Assembly (NCBI RefSeq): GCF_031082295.1
Contig: NZ_JAVHLD010000010.1
Span: 40,701 to 104,700 of the forward strand
DNA length: 64,000 nucleotides
Source: Humidesulfovibrio sp.
GTDB lineage: Bacteria; Desulfobacterota; Desulfovibrionia; Desulfovibrionales; Desulfovibrionaceae
Reading direction: 5' to 3'
Positions 53,726-62,820 of this stretch are shown one piece after another. The translations under genes and the position numbers were made by a program. The notes under the pieces are model-generated. The model had not been told where the DNA came from. It saw nothing but the letters and a program-made list of their open reading frames with translations, and ran no database searches. Every line of letters starts with the position of its first letter. The first letter of the stretch is position 1.

Positions 53726-54937
53726 CTAGCGAACCCGCCCGGGGAAGGACTGCTCGATGGCCGCCATGAGCGCGCTCAAGCGGTGCTCGTAGGTGTGCTC
53801 CGCCAGCACCCGCGCGCGCCCGGCCCCGGCGATGCGCTCGCGGGCCTCGGGATCGGCCAGGAAGCGCTCCACCAGCGGCCGTATCTCCTCGACATCGCGA
53901 TACAGCGCGATCTCTGTCTCCGGCTCGAACAGGCGCTCGATCTGCCTGCGGTGGTCTGTGAGCAGAAAGGCCCCGGCTGCGGGCACGTCGAACACGCGCT
54001 GGTTTACCGCGCCCTTCATCTGCAGGCTGGTGCAGTTGAAGTTCACCTCGCTGGCCGGATAAAAACCGGGCAGGTCTTCATAATAGCTCAGCTCCCTGAG
54101 CAGGCGCTGTCCCGCGCCCTCGGGCAGCAGCTGGCTCCAGCCGGAGTCCCCGGCGATGAGCGGGCCGAAGGGTAGGGTCCGGGCCACGCAGCCCAGGCGA
54201 TATTCCAGGGTGGAATGCCAGACCACCGCCGTGGCGTAGGCCACGCGCTGCAAGACCGGCAGCGCGGCCAGCTCCGAGCGGAGTTCCGGTCTGGACGCGG
54301 CCAGGAAGGCCTCCACCGAGCGCTCGCCCGACTGCCCGAAAGCGCGCGCCAGCTCGGCGAAAGCCGCGAGCAACGCCGGGCCGGGCATTGCGGCCTTGAG
54401 GCGGCTGGCGGTCTTGGCGACCATGGAGTTGCCCACGAAGGACACCCGCGAGCGCCACTCGGGCCTGCCCGTGCGCCCCGGGCTGAAGCGCTGCGGGTCG
54501 GCACCCAGCGGCAGCCAGAAGACGTTGGTGAAGCCGAAGCCGCGCACGGCATCCAGGCTGTCGGCGTCCCAGGTCAAGATGAGCGTGCTTTGGGGGTCTG
54601 GCTTGGGGTACAGCGGCAGGATGAACTCCGGGTTGTCCACGAACCACGACACCAGCGGCAGCTTGAGTTCCCCGGCCAGGGCGTAGAGCACGCCCTCATG
54701 GTCCACGCCCAGGTGGTTCACCGTGACGATGGCGTCTGGCTTGAAGGTCGCCACCGTCTCGCGCACGGTGCGGATGAACATCTCGCGGTCCACGCTGCGG
54801 GAGGCGAAGTCCAGCAGCAGGTGCGGGACATCGAGGCGCTGGCAGGCGGCCTTGAGCTCGCCCAGCAGAAAATAGGCGCTGGTCAAGAGGAGCAGGCGTG
54901 GGGTGCGGCCGCGATGGCGCAGAGGAAGGGCGTCCAT
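53726..54937 (-). CDS. CgeB/DUF3880-type glycosyltransferase
   Basis: A 403-residue predicted GT-B glycosyltransferase. The N-terminal half has SWFVDNPEFILPLYP, typical of DUF3880. The C-terminal half holds the donor domain: YYEDLPGFYPASEVNFNCTSLQMKGAVNQRVFDVPAAGAF, then DVEEIRPLVERFLADPEARERIAGAGRARVL, which matches Glyco_trans_1_2/CgeB. The sugar and acceptor are unknown. Position next to the hook operon and in a pair with a GT9 gene suggests surface or flagellar glycosylation. First gene of this two-gene operon; the upstream region to 55106 is AT-rich and probably carries divergent promoters. Confidence 0.9.
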   Translation of the reverse strand: MDALPLRHRGRTPRLLLLTSAYFLLGELKAACQRLDVPHLLLDFASRSVDREMFIRTVRETVATFKPDAIVTVNHLGVDHEGVLYALAGELKLPLVSWFVDNPEFILPLYPKPDPQSTLILTWDADSLDAVRGFGFTNVFWLPLGADPQRFSPGRTGRPEWRSRVSFVGNSMVAKTASRLKAAMPGPALLAAFAELARAFGQSGERSVEAFLAASRPELRSELAALPVLQRVAYATAVVWHSTLEYRLGCVARTLPFGPLIAGDSGWSQLLPEGAGQRLLRELSYYEDLPGFYPASEVNFNCTSLQMKGAVNQRVFDVPAAGAFLLTDHRRQIERLFEPETEIALYRDVEEIRPLVERFLADPEARERIAGAGRARVLAEHTYEHRLSALMAAIEQSFPGRVR

Positions 54938-55106
54938 GAGGCGGAACCCTAGCCGGGTACGTGGGCGCTGTAAAGCAGCCGAAGCCCGGCGTTATGCAAT
55001 ATTGAAAAAAGTAAACATTAATTCTTGGCTTCAAGGCATAAACAAAATCATTCGCCTGGCCGAAGACAACGCATTGCGCAGCACCACAAAAGGACGCGGG
55101 ACGGCC

Positions 55107-56795
55107 ATGAGCGATCTTGCAACCCTACTCGTCGAGACGGCTCACCACTGGGAACTCCTTGAGGACCTTGACGGCACCGTGGTCTATTGCTCGCCCGCCT
55201 GCCGGGAGATCACCGGATTCGACCCGGCGCATTTCCAGGGCCGGGCCGACGCCCTGGGGCGCATCGCCCACCCCGGCTCCAGAACCCTCGTTTCAGACTT
55301 CACGCGGGAGATGCGCGGCGCCGCACCCGGCGTCCGCCGCTGCCTTGAGCTGTGCATCCAGGTCCAGGACGGCGGGGTGCGCTGGCTGCGCTGCCACTCG
55401 CGCCTGATCACCGGGCCTGACGGCGCGTCCTACCTGCGCTCCACCCTGCGCGACATCTCAAGCCGCAAGGCGCTCGACCTGGAGATGGAGCTCTCCCGGC
55501 TCTCGGACCCGTTGACCCGCCTGTACAACCGGGCCTTCTGCCTGGAGAGCATCCAGCGCCTGCTGGACAGAGGCTCCCTGGCCGAGGACTTCGCCGTGGT
55601 GGCCCTCGACATCGACCGCTTGAAAAAGGTCAATGAGACCCTGGGGCCGACCTACGGCGACGATTTGGTACGCATCGCGGCGGAGCGCATCGCCTCGGCC
55701 GTCACCGCGCCCGACGTGGCCTGCCGCCTCTCGGGAGACGGGTTTGCGGTGATCATGCAGGGCAAGACCCCGCGCGAGATGATGGCCTTCGTGCACAAGG
55801 TGCTCTCCCTGCTGGACCGGCCCTTCATCCTGCGCGGACATGAGGTCAACGTGACGCCCAGCGCCGGGGTGCTCCTTGGCCCCGCCCTGTACGACCAGCC
55901 CGAGGACCTCCTGCGCAACGTCAGCATCGCGCTCCGGCGCGCGCGGGAGAGCCGAAACAACCGCTGCAAGGTCTTCCACTCGCGCCTTTTCGTCGACGCC
56001 TCGCGCCAGCACGAGATTGAGATAGACCTGCACGCGGGCCTGCGCTGCGGCCAGTTCTTCCTGGCCTACCAGCCCATCGTCTGCCTGGAGACCAACACCG
56101 TCACCAGCATCGAGGCCCTGCTGCGCTGGAACCACCCCCGCCACGGGCTCATGCAGCCCGCCGAGTTCCTCGGCGTGGCCGAGGCCACGGACTTCATCGT
56201 GCCGCTGGGCGAATGGGTGCTGAAGCAGGCCTGCCACGACATGGTGGAGACCCTGGTTCAGCGCACCGACATGGGCGCCGTGACCATGAGCGTGAACATT
56301 TCCGCCCGTCAGCTGGCCCACCACAGCATCTGCAACACCGTGGCCCGGGTGCTGCGCCAGTCGGGGCTGCCGCCGGAGAACCTCAAGCTCGAGATCACCG
56401 AGACAGTGGCCATGGAAAACCCCGTGCTCACGGCCCAGCGCCTGCACGCCATCAAGGCCCTGGGGGTCAAGATCAGCATCGACGACTTCGGCACAGGGTA
56501 CTCGTCCCTGGCCTCGCTGCAGAACTTTCCCATCGACACGCTCAAGGTCGACAAGAGCTTCGTGGGCATGATGGATTCGAGCACCGAACAGCGCAAGATC
56601 GTTCGCACCATCATCGCCCTTGCCCACAGCCTGAACCTGGAGGTGGTGGCCGAGGGCATCGAGCAGCAGGAACAGTGGTCCATGCTCAAGATGCTCGACT
56701 GCCAGAGCGGCCAGGGCTTTCTGTTCTCGCACCCGGTGGATGCGGACACCATGCGCGCGTTCATCTGCAAGGAAAGACCGCAGCTCAGGCAATAG
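55107..56795 (+). CDS. PAS-GGDEF-EAL protein, predicted c-di-GMP phosphodiesterase
   Basis: A 562-residue cytoplasmic protein. An N-terminal PAS domain (about residues 10-125) is followed by GGDEF (about 135-295) and EAL (about 310-560). The GGDEF motif reads SGDGF (RLSGDGFAV), so diguanylate cyclase activity is unlikely; such domains can still bind GTP as a regulator. The EAL domain keeps the catalytic set: IEALLRW, LEITET, SIDDFGTGYSSL, LKVDKSF, VVAEGIEQQEQ and QGFLFS. It should therefore break down c-di-GMP. AAAAGGA lies 12 bases before the ATG. It converges on the diguanylate cyclase gene with an 8-base gap. Confidence 0.94.
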   Translation: MSDLATLLVETAHHWELLEDLDGTVVYCSPACREITGFDPAHFQGRADALGRIAHPGSRTLVSDFTREMRGAAPGVRRCLELCIQVQDGGVRWLRCHSRLITGPDGASYLRSTLRDISSRKALDLEMELSRLSDPLTRLYNRAFCLESIQRLLDRGSLAEDFAVVALDIDRLKKVNETLGPTYGDDLVRIAAERIASAVTAPDVACRLSGDGFAVIMQGKTPREMMAFVHKVLSLLDRPFILRGHEVNVTPSAGVLLGPALYDQPEDLLRNVSIALRRARESRNNRCKVFHSRLFVDASRQHEIEIDLHAGLRCGQFFLAYQPIVCLETNTVTSIEALLRWNHPRHGLMQPAEFLGVAEATDFIVPLGEWVLKQACHDMVETLVQRTDMGAVTMSVNISARQLAHHSICNTVARVLRQSGLPPENLKLEITETVAMENPVLTAQRLHAIKALGVKISIDDFGTGYSSLASLQNFPIDTLKVDKSFVGMMDSSTEQRKIVRTIIALAHSLNLEVVAEGIEQQEQWSMLKMLDCQSGQGFLFSHPVDADTMRAFICKERPQLRQ

Positions 56796-56803
56796 GCGGG
56801 AGA

Positions 56804-58774
56804 TCAGGAGGGCGTACCGGCCATCCGGTAGGCGTTGCCCCCCGCGCGCTTGGCCGCGTACATGGCCGCGTCGGCCTTGGAAAGCAGGCTGTCCTGGTCC
56901 TCGCCGTTGACCGGGTAGCAGGCCACCCCCACCGAAGCGCCCAGGAACATGTTTCCGCCAGCCGCGTCCGGATCATGCAACGTATCCAGCACCTTCTCGG
57001 CCACGGCCTTGGCGTCCGCCGCTCCGGGCAAATCAGACAGAACGATGACGAACTCGTCGCCGCCCAGGCGAGCCACGGTGTCGGACTCGCGCACGCAGGC
57101 CTTGAGCCTCAAGGCGGTCTCCACCAGCACGCGATCGCCGTGGGCGTGGCCGTGGGCGTCGTTCAGGGCCTTGAAGTGGTCCAGGTCGATGTACAGCAGA
57201 CCCACGCCGGAGTTGTTGCGCCGCGCCCGGCGCAGGGCCTGCTCCAAGCGGTCGGCGAAGAGCTGGCGGTTGGGCAGGCCGGTGAGGGAGTCGTGCAGGG
57301 CCATGTGCCGCACGCGCTCCTCGCTGGCCTTGAGCGCGCTGACATCCTGGGCGTTTATCACCACCCGCCCGCCGGGCATGCGCGAGACCCTCATGCGGCA
57401 CCAGCACTGGCCGCCGTCGCGGTGCAGGAAGGCGAACACGCGCTCCGGCGGATTCTCCTGCAGCATGTCGTTCATGAGGTTGACCACGAAGCTCTGGCGG
57501 TCCTCCGGCGCCGGGAAGATGCGATCGGCCAGGGCCGCGAGCGAAGGCACCTCGCTGACGGAGTAGCCGAACAGGCGCTGCATTCCGGGGTTGTTGAAGA
57601 CGAGCTCGCCGCTCTTCTCGGCCAGGGCGATTCCGTCAAAGGAGCTCTGCAGGATCGCCCCGCGCTCCCGTCCTTCCAGCTCAAGCCTCGAGTAGAGGTT
57701 GGAGAGGTCATTGGTCATGGCGTTGAAGGCCTTGGCCAGGTTGCCCAGCTCGTCCCTGGTGGCCACCGGCGCGCGCGCCGACAAATCGCCCCCGGCCACG
57801 GCCATGGCGGCCTTGGTCACGGAGAGGATGGGCCGGGCCATCCGCCGGGAGAACACGTACACTCCGAGGCACAGCAGCGCGGCCACGGCCAGCCCCACCA
57901 GCACGCTGACCAGCGCCAGCCGCCCGGCGGAGGCGAAGGCCTCGTCCTGCGACATCTCGGCCAGCAAGGCCATCTGGTAGGGCGCCAGCCAGCGGTAGAC
58001 CCCGACCACCGGCACCCCGGCGTCGTTCAGGTACTGGCCGTGCCCGCTGCCCCCGGCCAGGGCGCGCTCGATGCCCTCGGTATGGGCCTGCCGCCCGGAA
58101 TGCAGAAGCCCCTTGCGCCCGGAGGCCACCAGGGTGTTCGAAGAGTCCACAAGGTAGGTCTCGCCCGTTTCGCCCAGGCCGGCCCGGGAGCGGATGATCT
58201 GGTCGATACGCTCAAGCCCGAGGTGCACCGCCAGCACGCCGAGCAGCTCGCCGGACTCGTCCTTCAGGGGCATGCTCACTGTGATGGTCGGCCGCAAGGA
58301 CTCCGGCGAGGGATACACGCTCTGGACCGTCGCCCCCTGGCGCCCCTGGGTGTAGTAATTGTAGCTGGCCCGGTAGCCTCCCACCTGCGCGGGATCGGTG
58401 GAGAGCAGCACACGGCCGCCCGTGGGGGCCAGCACAAGCACCTCGCGCACGTCTGCCTGGGCAGCCATGTAGTCGCGCAGGTGCGAGAGCAGCCGTTGGG
58501 TTTCACGCTCGTCCAGCCCGGCCTTGCCGGCATACTGGCGGGCGACGGTGGCGCCCACGAACTGCAGATCGCGCAGACGCTCCTCTATCCACAACCCCAG
58601 GTCTGTCTCCTTTTGGCGGCTGGCGGACTGCAGGCGGTCCACCGCTGCCTGGCGCAGAAAGGCCCGGCCGACCAGATAGCTGGCCGCGCCCATGCCTGCC
58701 ACGCCCAGCAGCGAGAACACCAGATAGGTGCTCACCAGTCGGGCCACCAGGCTTTTTTGGATGAAGCCCATCAT
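56804..58774 (-). CDS. Membrane diguanylate cyclase (Cache-HAMP-PAS-GGDEF)
   Basis: A 656-residue sensor enzyme. Helix 1 (about residues 9-33) and helix 2 (about 300-325, LVSVLVGLAVAALLCLGVYVF) bracket a periplasmic double-Cache domain (VREVLVLAPTGGRVLLST, then RPTITVSMPLKDESGELLGVLAVHLGL). HAMP (about 325-378), PAS (about 385-490) and GGDEF (about 500-656) follow. RLGGDEFVIVLSD is intact, and RESD five residues upstream is a product-inhibition I-site, so it should make c-di-GMP and be feedback-limited. GAGG six bases before the ATG at 58774 fixes the start. It is third in an operon after two binding lipoproteins. Confidence 0.95.
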   Translation of the reverse strand: MMGFIQKSLVARLVSTYLVFSLLGVAGMGAASYLVGRAFLRQAAVDRLQSASRQKETDLGLWIEERLRDLQFVGATVARQYAGKAGLDERETQRLLSHLRDYMAAQADVREVLVLAPTGGRVLLSTDPAQVGGYRASYNYYTQGRQGATVQSVYPSPESLRPTITVSMPLKDESGELLGVLAVHLGLERIDQIIRSRAGLGETGETYLVDSSNTLVASGRKGLLHSGRQAHTEGIERALAGGSGHGQYLNDAGVPVVGVYRWLAPYQMALLAEMSQDEAFASAGRLALVSVLVGLAVAALLCLGVYVFSRRMARPILSVTKAAMAVAGGDLSARAPVATRDELGNLAKAFNAMTNDLSNLYSRLELEGRERGAILQSSFDGIALAEKSGELVFNNPGMQRLFGYSVSEVPSLAALADRIFPAPEDRQSFVVNLMNDMLQENPPERVFAFLHRDGGQCWCRMRVSRMPGGRVVINAQDVSALKASEERVRHMALHDSLTGLPNRQLFADRLEQALRRARRNNSGVGLLYIDLDHFKALNDAHGHAHGDRVLVETALRLKACVRESDTVARLGGDEFVIVLSDLPGAADAKAVAEKVLDTLHDPDAAGGNMFLGASVGVACYPVNGEDQDSLLSKADAAMYAAKRAGGNAYRMAGTPS

Positions 58775-58793
58775 GCGCGCCTCGTTCCCCTGC

Positions 58794-59978
58794 TCATGAC
58801 GCGGGCTCCAACACCTTGCGGCTGCGGGCCTGCCCGCCTTCGATGAACATGATGTGCGCGCCGCGCACCGCGTCTCCCCCGCGCTCAAACGACAGCCGCC
58901 CGGAGAACCCCTCGTAGTCTCGCAGAGAGGCTATGCCTGCGCGCAGCGACACCGGGGCCACGCTGCCCACGGCCTGGGCTGCGGCCAGGACCACGCCCAG
59001 GGCGTCCAGCACCATGGCTCCGTCGCTGTCCATGGGAACTCCCGCAACGCTCTCCAAGTGCTCTGCCTGCCGACGCACGGCCTCGCCCATGGCCCCATGC
59101 GCAAAGTTCGCGGTGAAGAACGAGCCCTGCGCCGCCGACAATTCGAGGACACTTGTGCCCTCCTCCCAGGAGTCGCCTCCGAGAAAGACTCCGCTAAACC
59201 CGGCCCGCCTGGCCTGAGCCATCTGCAGGACCACATCCTGAACGTAGTTGGGCAGATACAACGCCTGGGCCTTGGCAGCCCGAATGCGCCCAAGCTGTAT
59301 GGAGAAGTCCGTCACGCCTCCAGGATACCCTTCCTGCGCCACAACCTTTCCACCGAGCGCCACAAAGGCATCGGCAAAATACCGGGCAAGCCCTTGGGGA
59401 TAGGTATCAGACTCGTCATAGAGCACCGCGATGCTGCGCAGGCCGAGAACCTGGAACGCATACTGGGCCATGAACCGCCCCTGCACCGTGTCCACCAGAC
59501 AGACACTGAAGGCGTACTTGCGGCCCAAAGTCACCTGCGGGTTGCTCGCCGTGGGGCTGACCATGGGCACCTGCGCGTCCTCGGTCGCGTTGGCTACGAA
59601 GATGGCGTCCCGGCTGTAGTAGGGACCCACAAGGGCGGCTACCCGCTCCTGGCGGATGAGCCGGACAGCGGCGCTCAGAGTGCGCTCCACATGGCCTCCT
59701 GTGTCTTCCACCAGCAGCCGGACCTTGATACGCCTGCCGCCCACAGCCAGACCGCCCCCGGCGTTGACGCGCGCCACAAGCGCCTCGGCAGCGTCTTTTG
59801 CCGTAACGATGTTGGGGGGGCCGGACAGGGGTACCAGCAGGCCGATGCGAAACTCGTCGTCCTCAGCCCCTGCCCCTGCCCCTGCCCCGGAGCAGGCGGA
59901 CATAACCGCCAACGCCCCCAGGGCCAGACACAGCGCCACACCGAGCAGGCATCGCCGCGCAAAGGTTCCGCTCCTCAC
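58794..59978 (-). CDS. Orphan LIVBP-type binding lipoprotein 1
   Basis: A 394-residue periplasmic binding protein of the Leu/Ile/Val-binding (type 1) fold. Signal peptide and lipobox MSAC (cysteine about residue 29) are followed by a GAGAGAGA linker encoded by a six-base repeat. Then come FRIGLLVPLSGPPNIV, VALVGPYYSRDAIFVANATED, VPMVSPTASNPQVT and VVAQEGYPGGVTDFSIQLGRI, all family blocks. No permease or ATPase gene is near, so uptake is unlikely. It lies between the second binding protein (4-base overlap) and the diguanylate cyclase (19 bases away), suggesting a sensing role. The ligand is unknown; amino acids or aromatic acids are typical. Confidence 0.93.
   Translation of the reverse strand: MRSGTFARRCLLGVALCLALGALAVMSACSGAGAGAGAEDDEFRIGLLVPLSGPPNIVTAKDAAEALVARVNAGGGLAVGGRRIKVRLLVEDTGGHVERTLSAAVRLIRQERVAALVGPYYSRDAIFVANATEDAQVPMVSPTASNPQVTLGRKYAFSVCLVDTVQGRFMAQYAFQVLGLRSIAVLYDESDTYPQGLARYFADAFVALGGKVVAQEGYPGGVTDFSIQLGRIRAAKAQALYLPNYVQDVVLQMAQARRAGFSGVFLGGDSWEEGTSVLELSAAQGSFFTANFAHGAMGEAVRRQAEHLESVAGVPMDSDGAMVLDALGVVLAAAQAVGSVAPVSLRAGIASLRDYEGFSGRLSFERGGDAVRGAHIMFIEGGQARSRKVLEPAS
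59866..59888. repeat. Six-base tandem repeat in the lipoprotein linker
   Basis: GCCCCT is repeated three times and followed by GCCCC. In the minus-strand gene it encodes alternating Gly-Ala right after the lipidated cysteine. Gain or loss of units would keep the frame and only change linker length. Confidence 0.6.
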
Positions 59979-61180
59979 TGCACCACCTCCGCATCCCCAG
60001 AGCCTTCGCCCGTCGCGATGCTCAGAACTGTCCCGGCGCGCTGCAACCCCCGGGAGGAGATCTCCAGTATCTGGGCATCGCGCGCGGGCGTGCCCATGGA
60101 ATAGCGCCCGTAGCCGACCACGCCAGAAAATTCCGTCACGTCGCGCAAGGCCGCTGCCAGCACTTGGGGATCAAAGCCCCGCGCCTGCCTGGCGGCCCGG
60201 AACAGGAGGCCGAAAGCATCATAAACCTGCGCCGAAACCGAGTTCGGCTGACGACCGAAGGCCGCGGTGTAGCGTTCAAGAAAGCCGCGCGCCACTTCCG
60301 TCTGCTGCCCGGAAGGATGCCAGACCACCAGAAAACGCGCGCCCGTCATGCCCTCCATGTCGACGTTGCGAAGCAGGTCCCAGCCGTCCGTCCCAAGCAC
60401 CTCGCCCCTGAAGCCCAGCGCTCGCGCCTGACGCACCAGCAGCGGGGCATCAACGTGGTAAACGGGCAGAAACAACACCTCTGGGCGGGAGCGCAGGAGC
60501 GTGCGCAACAGGGGAGCGCCGTCCTTCGCGTCCAGGTATCCGGCCAGTTCGGCCTGCTTGCCGCCCCGGGCGATGAAGGCCTGCTTGAATTCCGCGGCCA
60601 GGGTGCGGGAGTAGATGTTCCCCTGGTCGAAGAGCACCGCGGCGCGCTGCGCTCCGCCGTCGCGGCACAGGCGGGCGACGGCTCGGGCCTGGAAGGCGTC
60701 GGAATAGGGAATGCGGAATGCGTAGTTGCGGCTCGTGGTAAGCTGCGGGGTGGTGGCCCCGGGGCTGATGAAGGGGACGCGGCTCTCCTCGGCCAAGGCG
60801 GCCATGGGCAGCGCCTGCTCCGAGGTGGCCCCGCCGATGACGCACACCGCCCCGGAAGCCAAAGCCTTGCGCATGGCTCGCAAGCCGTCCTCAACGCCGG
60901 GGCCGTGGGTCAGCGTCTCCAACCTGAGGGGCACGCGCCCGTTCGGGGTGGCGATGCCGCCCGCCAGGACCGCCTCTCGGCGCACCATCTCGGCAGCGTT
61001 GCGATACTCGCTTTCCATGCCCAGGGCCCCGCCCTCGACCACCAGAAGCGCCACGGCCAGCTCCTCCTGGGGATTGTTGGGTCTGGAGCCGCAGGAAGCA
61101 GCCAGAAACGCCACGCACACGAGCAGAAACACGGCCTTCAGCCGCGCTGCCGCTCTTTGCACGTGTCTTTCCTGCGCCAT
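59975..61180 (-). CDS. Orphan LIVBP-type binding lipoprotein 2
   Basis: A 401-residue relative of the neighbouring binding protein. A signal peptide (AVFLLVCVAFLAASC, lipidated cysteine about residue 30) precedes a type 1 periplasmic binding domain: VALLVVEGGALGMESEYRNAAEMVRREAVLAGGI, VCVIGGATSEQALPMAALAEE, VPFISPGATTPQLTTSRNYAFRIPYSD, and VLFLPVYHVDAPLLVRQARALGF. No transporter genes accompany it. Its end overlaps the next lipoprotein gene by 4 bases and the cyclase follows, so the three form one operon. A hairpin of 40 bases ends 10 bases before the ATG. Confidence 0.93.
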   Translation of the reverse strand: MAQERHVQRAAARLKAVFLLVCVAFLAASCGSRPNNPQEELAVALLVVEGGALGMESEYRNAAEMVRREAVLAGGIATPNGRVPLRLETLTHGPGVEDGLRAMRKALASGAVCVIGGATSEQALPMAALAEESRVPFISPGATTPQLTTSRNYAFRIPYSDAFQARAVARLCRDGGAQRAAVLFDQGNIYSRTLAAEFKQAFIARGGKQAELAGYLDAKDGAPLLRTLLRSRPEVLFLPVYHVDAPLLVRQARALGFRGEVLGTDGWDLLRNVDMEGMTGARFLVVWHPSGQQTEVARGFLERYTAAFGRQPNSVSAQVYDAFGLLFRAARQARGFDPQVLAAALRDVTEFSGVVGYGRYSMGTPARDAQILEISSRGLQRAGTVLSIATGEGSGDAEVVQ

Positions 61181-61230: not shown

Positions 61231-61287
61231 CACTATCTCACACCGGGGAAGTTTGACAAGAAAAGCTCAGAGATCAGCGAGAAATAA

Positions 61288-62820
61288 TCACCCACGCCGA
61301 CGCACGCGCCGCGCCAGGGCGTCCACCAGCATGCGCGCTTCGTCCAGGCCCAGGCGGCGGGCCAGCAGAAAATACAGCACCGCCCACAGCGGGATCAGCA
61401 GCAGCCAGACAAGGCGCGTGCCCGAGCTGCCCCAGGCCAGCAGCCCGATGACGAGGCTGGGCGCGCCGCACTTGAGCCAGGTGGACAGGCACATGGGCCA
61501 GGCCCCCAGACGGCGGCGCAAGAGCAGGGACAGGAGCGTCACGTTGACGCAGCTGGCCAAGGACACGGCCAGGGCCAGCCCCACGTGGGCCAGTTGCTGC
61601 ATGAGCGCCCAGCCCAGCAGGATGTTCACGGCCACGCACAGGGTGGCCACCAGCACCGGGGTGCGCGTGTCCTCCAGGGCGTAGAAGGCCCCCACCAGCG
61701 GCCGCACCAGGGCGATGGCGGGCAGCCCCAGGCCGTAGGCCATGAGCGCATGCGACGTGGCCCGGATGGCCTCCGGCCCGAAGGCGCCGCGCCCGAACAG
61801 CAGCGCGATGAGCGGCTCGGAGAGGGCGACCAGCCCCGCCATGGCTGGCAGGCTGATGGTCAGCGACAGGCGCAGGGAGGAACGGATGACGGACAGGAAT
61901 TCTTCGGGCGTGCCCTCGGCGCACAGGCGAGAGAGGCTGGGCAGGGCCGCAGTGCTCACCGCCAGCCCGAAAACCCCCACCGGGAACTGCACAAGGCGGT
62001 CGGCGTAGTACAGGTACGAGATGCTGCCCACAGGCAGGAACGACGCCAGGAGCGTGCCCAGCAGCAGGTTGAGCTGGTACACGCCGCTGCCGAACACCGA
62101 GGGCAGCATGAGCCTGCCCATGCGCAGCACCGCCGGGTCGAACCAGCGCCACGGCCCGCGCCAGGAAAAGCCAAGCCGCCGCAGGTAGGGCTGCTGGAAC
62201 AGCCACTGCCCCAGGCCGGAGGCCAAAACGCCCCAAGCCAGGCAATAGGCCACGTTGAGCTCGAAATGCCAGCCGACGAGCGCGAAGCTGATGAACCCGA
62301 TGTTCAGGATGCACGGGGCGAAGGCCGGGGCGAAGAAATGGTCCAGGGCGTTCAGAACGCCCATGCACAGCCCCACGCCCGAGATGAAGATGATGTACGG
62401 GAAGCAGATGCGAAGCAGGCTCGCCGTGGTGGCGTGCAGCTCGGGATTGCGCTCGAAGCCCGGCGCGATGAGCCCCGTGAGCTCCGGCGCGAAGTACATG
62501 GCCAGGAGCGTGATGGCCGTCAGGATGCTCACGAGCCAGGCCAGCACCGCCCGGGCCATCTCCCTGGCGCGCTCCTCGCCCTCCTCCGCCCGCACCCGCG
62601 AGAACGCAGGGATGAAGGCCATGGTCAGGGAGCCCTCGGCGAACAGGCTGCGCAAGAGGTTCGGGATGCGGAAGGCCACGAAGAAGGCATCCGCGAACAG
62701 GCCCGCCCCCAGGGTGAAGGCAGTGATGAGGTCGCGCACGAAGCCCAGCATCCGCGAAACCAGGGTGGCCCCGCCGACGGTGGCGGCGCGGCGGGCTATG
62801 TGGCGGGATTCGGCGTTCAT
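61288..62820 (-). CDS. murJ: Lipid II flippase MurJ
   Basis: A 510-residue polytopic membrane protein of the MOP superfamily that flips lipid II across the inner membrane for peptidoglycan synthesis. About 14 helices are visible. Conserved parts include ATVGGATLVSRMLGFVRDLITAFTLGAG at the start, DAFFVAFRIPNLLRSLFAEGSLTMAFIPAFS, and LPSLSRLCAEGTPEEFLSVIRSSL. Arginines expected in the central cavity lie in the first segments (SRMLGFVRD). Length is standard. It is 55 bases from gluQ upstream and may be co-transcribed with it. Confidence 0.96.
   Translation of the reverse strand: MNAESRHIARRAATVGGATLVSRMLGFVRDLITAFTLGAGLFADAFFVAFRIPNLLRSLFAEGSLTMAFIPAFSRVRAEEGEERAREMARAVLAWLVSILTAITLLAMYFAPELTGLIAPGFERNPELHATTASLLRICFPYIIFISGVGLCMGVLNALDHFFAPAFAPCILNIGFISFALVGWHFELNVAYCLAWGVLASGLGQWLFQQPYLRRLGFSWRGPWRWFDPAVLRMGRLMLPSVFGSGVYQLNLLLGTLLASFLPVGSISYLYYADRLVQFPVGVFGLAVSTAALPSLSRLCAEGTPEEFLSVIRSSLRLSLTISLPAMAGLVALSEPLIALLFGRGAFGPEAIRATSHALMAYGLGLPAIALVRPLVGAFYALEDTRTPVLVATLCVAVNILLGWALMQQLAHVGLALAVSLASCVNVTLLSLLLRRRLGAWPMCLSTWLKCGAPSLVIGLLAWGSSGTRLVWLLLIPLWAVLYFLLARRLGLDEARMLVDALARRVRRRG

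Follow-up and report, generated by a model that had tools for sequence, protein, structure and literature searches.

We describe here a three-gene operon of the sulfate-reducing bacterium Humidesulfovibrio sp., found within a 64,000-nucleotide stretch of contig NZ_JAVHLD010000010.1 (the window), which encodes two related binding lipoproteins, here called SBP_A and SBP_B, and a predicted membrane diguanylate cyclase (the cyclase) with a double Cache (dCache) sensor domain. The reading that we favour, at a probability of roughly 0.7, is that this is a sensory operon in which SBP_B, with SBP_A as an optional second partner, docks on the dCache domain and thereby sets predicted levels of cyclic diguanosine monophosphate (c-di-GMP), the dCache subfamily to which the sensor belongs being a readout for docked proteins. 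The dCache domain probably responds to the binding protein and not directly to the nutrient, because its nearest relatives in distant microbes mostly come after genes of several binding-protein families.

In such a mechanism the lipid-anchored SBP_B would close on an amino-acid-like solute, presumably an alpha-amino acid or a similar small solute, and the loaded (or empty) protein would touch the dCache dimer; the HAMP and PAS domains would then relay the change to the GGDEF domain, and c-di-GMP could rise or fall. SBP_A would serve as another key to that socket, either broadening the range of ligands or competing for the site. In wider terms, the binding protein would provide specificity and be exchangeable, and the output domain would be exchangeable too.

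Gene content of the operon

All three genes are intact and lie on the minus strand (Table 1). The first-pass annotation of this DNA had described two related lipoproteins overlapping by 4 bases and followed 19 bases later by an intact cyclase, and both the sequence and the Pfam matches bear this out. SBP_A (E 6.6e-36, 125.1 bits) and SBP_B (E 4.8e-51, 174.9 bits) match Peripla_BP_6 above its cut-off of 31.7 bits, are about 30% identical to one another, and each carry a lipobox pattern (LAASC in SBP_A); SBP_B has the binding-protein fold and conserved amino-acid pocket positions. Among the NCBIfam matches of the two proteins no equivalog exceeded its cut-off, and the Liv-type subfamily model gave them 41 and 80 bits against a cut-off of 477. 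The residue after the lipobox Cys of SBP_A is Gly in the window, Asp in two other loci of the genus (L036 and L038) and Glu in a third (L037); in Escherichia coli, an Asp at this position would retain a lipoprotein at the inner membrane.

The cyclase matches dCache_1 (4.7e-16, 59.5 bits, cut-off 45), HAMP (4.4e-15), PAS and GGDEF (4.4e-50). Its GGDEF motif is intact (RLGGDEF), with RxxD five residues ahead and the Asp of GHxxGD present, the latter two being features of diguanylate cyclases; a degenerate GGDEF domain is ruled out by the intact GGDEF and RxxD motifs. The model of the dCache domain has the double Cache fold with long first and last helices, and finds structural matches of that fold, and the domain lies between two transmembrane (TM) helices. 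The absence of transporter genes alongside, which the first-pass annotation had also claimed, held in the 12.7 kb around SBP_A and SBP_B (locus L035), where neither a Liv-type permease nor an ATP-binding cassette (ABC) ATPase was found and no HAAT/Liv importer could be recognized.

Conservation in Humidesulfovibrio and the Desulfovibrionaceae

The adjacency on which the operon reading depends was proposed for checking in the first-pass annotation, and it is complete where it can be read: SBP_B immediately precedes the cyclase in 16/16 readable loci of three genera. Twelve of these are all the Humidesulfovibrio loci with upstream sequence, from 15 genomes of the genus, and they include two (L041 and L047) in which one of SBP_B and the cyclase is cut by a contig end; L048 and L049 are cut before SBP_B and were not counted as readable, and in one genome (G010, 81% complete) neither gene was found. 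The remaining four lie in other genera, three with the order SBP_A, SBP_B, cyclase (L139, L140 and L204) and one with SBP_B and the cyclase (L141); in the second genus, all three loci read carry both binding proteins.

SBP_A is less regular. It is present in 3/4 loci of the other genera and in 4/12 Humidesulfovibrio loci with a readable interval between murJ and SBP_B (L035-L038), its orthologues being 53-65% identical and found in 3/14 other genomes of the genus. A tandem pair conserved throughout was thus rejected, given its presence in just 4/12 loci of the genus, and the core unit is one binding protein plus the cyclase.

That these genes are neighbours merely through a housekeeping region around murJ, with no joint function, we regard as very improbable. 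The murJ and glycosyltransferase neighbours are indeed kept across the genus, but the unit holds together in L139, L140 and L141, where no murJ match was found beside it, and among the distant sensor relatives treated below the order recurs in Chloroflexota with the same binding-protein family and in cyanobacteria with a different one. A seryl-tRNA synthetase gene adjoins SBP_A in L139, and both L139 and L140 carry, past another gene, an ABC ATPase gene some 1.6 kb away from SBP_A.

Descent of the binding proteins

In a tree of 44 binding proteins, SBP_A (support 100/99) and SBP_B (91/87) fall within one group (95/93). Apart from this group stands a nine-member clade (100/100), to which the genome's own C71 protein belongs and in which every member adjoins a LivH-type permease gene. 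Homologues beside LivHMGF transporters, which would have spoken for a role in transport, are therefore set apart from SBP_A and SBP_B by the tree, and membership of the two in Liv operons was rejected on this ground. On this tree the pair did not arise recently; it either predates two genera or was shared between them, with SBP_A unevenly lost or passed on.

The genome itself has 14 Peripla_BP_6 matches, one of which is an LppC-like protein of 676 aa. The other 13 divide into seven in five Liv operons, each with LivH-, LivM- and LivF-like genes, and six in five signalling operons, that of SBP_A and SBP_B included. With five Liv operons at hand, and with SBP_B sharing 33-35% identity with the Liv binding protein C71, one could imagine that SBP_A and SBP_B serve a Liv-type transporter elsewhere in the genome and that the cyclase is co-regulated with them and untouched by them. 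We consider this improbable, as every Liv operon owns a binding protein, the SBP_A/SBP_B group is separate in the tree, and the unit loci scanned (L035-L047 and L139-L141) yielded no Liv permease. One of the Liv transporter operons is preceded by three tandem Peripla_BP_6 genes (L051:7020-10755).

The other four signalling operons, delimited by our own gene calls, resemble SBP_B and the cyclase in that a Peripla_BP_6 gene abuts a signalling gene, and no Liv gene was found around any of them. The binding-protein gene overlaps by 4 bases a gene for sCache_3_2-HAMP-PAS-GGDEF-EAL in C66 (L053:3452-7683), a GGDEF protein with HAMP below cut-off in C2 (L054:3842-6717), and an sCache_3_2-PAS-kinase accompanied by a receiver-STAS gene in C8 (L058:3432-7424); in C9 (L052:2352-6877) it overlaps by 1 base a gene for a PAS-GAF-kinase-receiver protein with dCache_1 below cut-off. 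These orphan pairs differ from the operon described here in their sensors, which are of other or unassigned type (sCache_3_2 in C8 and C66), and in outputs that comprise GGDEF, GGDEF-EAL and kinases. Coupling of binding proteins to receptors thus seems habitual in this genome.

Relatives of the sensor domain

When named genomes were scanned with the aligned sensor parts of 12 cyclases, 79 loci were obtained, taken from the best 80 of 458 confirmed, and the counts given here represent the nearest dCache relatives only. Ten of the 79 are Humidesulfovibrio-like, nine with a binding protein preceding the receptor and one cut. The other 69 come from Chloroflexota, cyanobacteria, Spirochaetales, Patescibacteria, Woesearchaeota and more; most are metagenome bins, the titles of which may be wrong, and several are near-copies (e.g. 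L112, L118, L120 and L122) or are cut by contig ends. In 62/69, an open reading frame (ORF) of at least 120 aa ends no more than 400 bases ahead of the estimated start of the receptor and no more than 120 bases past it (L142 was covered by this search too). Classified by BLAST clustering and by Pfam matches of representatives, 49 of these 62 ORFs were binding-protein genes. A binding-protein gene thus precedes the dCache receptor in 49/69 distant loci, all misses counted, and in L081 and L106 one lies farther upstream.

The 49 fall into seven Pfam groupings, namely NMT1 (23), SBP_bac_1/8 (17), Peripla_BP_6 (4), SBP_bac_5 (2), Phosphonate-bd (1), Bmp (1) and Peripla_BP_4 (1), and a lipobox pattern is present in 37 of them, with three more cut at a contig start. 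An ABC ATPase occurs in just one (L086) of the 49 stretches, of 3.6-13.2 kb each, so the upstream binding proteins resemble orphans rather than parts of transporters; permeases were sought by Liv-type models only. The receptors end in a kinase in 30 cases, GGDEF in two (by hidden Markov model, HMM) and GAF in three (by Pfam), with a next-frame kinase in L075 and 13 outputs without assignment. In that Chloroflexaceae locus (L075:5950-8345), the receptor is spread over two overlapping frames, dCache and then HAMP-PAS-kinase, with a Peripla_BP_6 gene ahead. Tandem dCache receptors occur in L081 (4310-7209) and L087 (4681-7365), both of those in L081 following a single SBP_bac_8-type gene, and in a Patescibacteria locus (L095:4531-5850) a gene for a FIST-domain protein, and no binding protein, stands ahead of the receptor.

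Two sets of control loci gave no comparable pattern. The first comprised 39 hand-chosen weaker dCache matches plus L183, a locus also counted in the family search discussed below, and none of the 40 had a binding protein by four binding-protein HMM classes; Pfam applied to 28 of 31 upstream ORFs (three short ones were dropped) revealed no binding protein and one ABC permease among the 25 of 39 families listed. In the second, 0/20 dCache loci had a binding protein by seven HMM classes; three of its loci (G193, G089 and G152) are shared with the first, upstream sequence is nearly lacking in L198 and amounts to just 0.5 kb in L193, and in L201 an ORF some 1.9 kb upstream starts, to the eye, like a binding protein. 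In a quick dCache tree, with 29/91 forks open and 12/23 usable controls, and used solely to gauge clustering of labels, the label changed 23 times against a shuffled mean of 57.9. L193 and L194 are near dCache homologues with kinase modules, and each comes right after an ORF that to the eye resembles a CheR methyltransferase, in place of a binding protein.

Whether the domain might instead bind a small ligand of its own can be judged in part from the known amino-acid motif. R126 of PctA is a residue of this motif. An excerpted account of PctA names W128, Y129 and D173 (PMC11245519). By our own reading of the alignment, the cyclase has Y138, Y140 and H184 at the columns of R126, W128 and D173; the pattern R.[WF][WFY] occurs in 0/55 alignment rows, and Asp at the D173 column in 5/55. 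Assignment of the domain as an amino-acid sensor of the dCache_1AA type was rejected, the motif being absent.

These counts bear upon an alternative that we hold to be unlikely, in which the dCache domain binds its own ligand and the binding proteins do no more than buffer it or hand it over within the periplasm, with no docking. The PDB has many dCache domains with a small ligand bound, one of them from a diguanylate cyclase with proline (7k5n). A solved chain from the Desulfovibrionales, Dret_0059 of Desulfohalobium retbaense (5ere), in which Peripla_BP_6 and dCache modules are fused, likewise favours it to the extent that its dCache domain is listed under cytosine in the part of the source consulted (PMC8694187). 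Against it stand the missing motif, in a test that covered the amino-acid motif, and the adjacency with different binding-protein families, which is hard to explain if the ligand alone counts.

If docking is what the subfamily reads, one may go further and propose that it forms a universal socket, open to binding proteins from at least seven Pfam groupings, in which new senses arise by swapping the neighbouring gene as the socket and any of several outputs stay, the Humidesulfovibrio tandem being a two-input version. The subfamily occurs in Desulfovibrionaceae, Chloroflexota, cyanobacteria, Spirochaetales, Patescibacteria and Woesearchaeota, with c-di-GMP cyclase, kinase and GAF-protein outputs. 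We offer this extension tentatively, and would put it at somewhat under even odds.

Discussion

Control of c-di-GMP enzymes by binding proteins is already known in kind. In the partial accounts consulted, NspS-MbaA of Vibrio cholerae and Sinorhizobium meliloti is a system in which a membrane c-di-GMP enzyme answers to a periplasmic binding protein, and the likeness lies in a binding-protein gene set beside such an enzyme. NspS-MbaA is described there as bifunctional, whereas the Humidesulfovibrio cyclase has GGDEF alone and is served by LIVBP-type lipoproteins, up to two in tandem; NspS is a polyamine-binding protein of a family other than LIVBP. In Salmonella, an excerpt reports that the response of the dCache_1 cyclase STM1987 to L-arginine requires ArtI, a putative periplasmic arginine-binding protein (PMC8846402). 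Unlike it, SBP_A and SBP_B are orphan lipoproteins inside the cyclase's own operon. ArtI is part of an arginine transporter. LuxP-LuxQ offers a further likeness, as there too a periplasmic Cache domain reads a binding protein, and LuxQ appears under Cache with no cofactor or ligand in the portion of the survey consulted (PMC8694187). According to partial accounts, chemoreceptors, kinases and others are also under binding-protein control. The LuxP-LuxQ system differs from that of Humidesulfovibrio in its kinase output, in the LuxP family and in its signal, autoinducer-2.

The fusion in 5ere is unlike the present system in that one chain takes the place of separate proteins. Its dCache domain was not matched by sequence to the subfamily of the cyclase at E 0.01, and its sequence was not among the matches listed for phmmer searches with the C2 and C66 binding proteins; it was not among the best 50 structure-list entries for SBP_B either, which carries no weight.

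That the binding proteins feed the Cache domain, as the first-pass annotation had suggested, is well supported, indirectly, by the unbroken adjacency, by the varied families that precede homologous dCache domains in other phyla and by the 5ere fusion; the tandem pair that it had placed at the centre is not the core. Its further statement that a tandem pair wired to a cyclase is little described fared similarly, in that the open-licence literature yielded no description of a tandem LIVBP pair ahead of a cyclase, nor of a dCache subfamily that is regularly coupled to binding proteins from different families, but the kind of control is that of NspS-MbaA and ArtI-STM1987 as far as the consulted parts of those reports go.

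A number of observations count against docking as we propose it. SBP_A is missing from 8/12 Humidesulfovibrio loci (L039-L046), in which SBP_B stands alone. The sensor part is matched at E 1e-30 in 18/288 genomes of the family and in only 4/44 genera, and the system is therefore patchy; in the fourth of these genera (G218, L183) the sensor match is partial and no binding protein was found alongside. Near dCache homologues with no neighbouring binding protein exist as well, in L142 (E 4.5e-86), L143, L193 (with only its 0.5 kb upstream) and L194, and 20/69 distant loci show none in the position searched. Both controls come from Desulfovibrionales only, and the test loci span many phyla. The cytosine listing of 5ere implies that such a dCache domain can have its own ligand. 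Last, the kinases AgtS and AruS did not bind the solute-binding proteins encoded next door, according to the excerpt available (PMC11113362), and gene adjacency is consequently no proof of interaction.

To our knowledge, most dCache receptors have no known signal. If the subfamily does read binding proteins, the neighbouring gene would name the partner, and its family the likely class of ligand, for dozens of bacterial and archaeal receptors. Dedicated lipid-anchored sensors of amino-acid type would join the few known binding-protein inputs to c-di-GMP, and in tandem form they would allow a single cyclase to combine two signals. In the fusion from Desulfohalobium (5ere), both modules can be viewed in one solved chain, which is a guide for mutants.

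Flanking features

Table 1. Features of the operon and its surroundings (positions within the window).
Feature	Position	Strand	Description
SBP_A	59975..61180	minus	Peripla_BP_6 (LIVBP-type) lipoprotein, 401 aa; accessory second binding protein
SBP_B	58794..59978	minus	Peripla_BP_6 (LIVBP-type) lipoprotein, 394 aa, GTG start; core partner of the cyclase
Cyclase	56804..58774	minus	dCache_1-HAMP-PAS-GGDEF, 656 aa, ATG at 58774; predicted membrane diguanylate cyclase
Cyclase residues 1-315 (TM1, dCache, TM2)	57830..58774	minus	
Overlap of SBP_A stop and SBP_B start, GTGA	59975..59978	minus	Read from the sequence
Promoter-like site before SBP_A	61232..61259	minus	TTGTCA-16-GATAGT, TG ahead of second hexamer; consensus match only
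Weak terminator-like stem, murJ end	61293..61308	minus	5 found in region vs 2.2 expected
PAS-GGDEF-EAL neighbour, convergent, outside the operon	55107..56795	plus	Candidate c-di-GMP phosphodiesterase

The promoter-like site, which lies between murJ and SBP_A, matches the consensus at 9/12 positions, with one such site found in the region and 0.3 expected in shuffles; as a pattern match only, it is in keeping with a separate transcript.

No match to a LapG-type protease (PF06035) was found in the genome itself. The convergent PAS-GGDEF-EAL neighbour has an EAL match of 7.5e-72 in Pfam (in a longer frame, 54903-56795) with EALLR and DDFGTG present, and SGDGF replaces GGDEF. It is absent in L037, L043-L045, L047 and L048, and stands at the same place in 6/12 readable loci of the genus (that of the window, L036, L038, L039, L040 and L049), where, to judge from these motifs, it may supply an activity opposing that of the cyclase.

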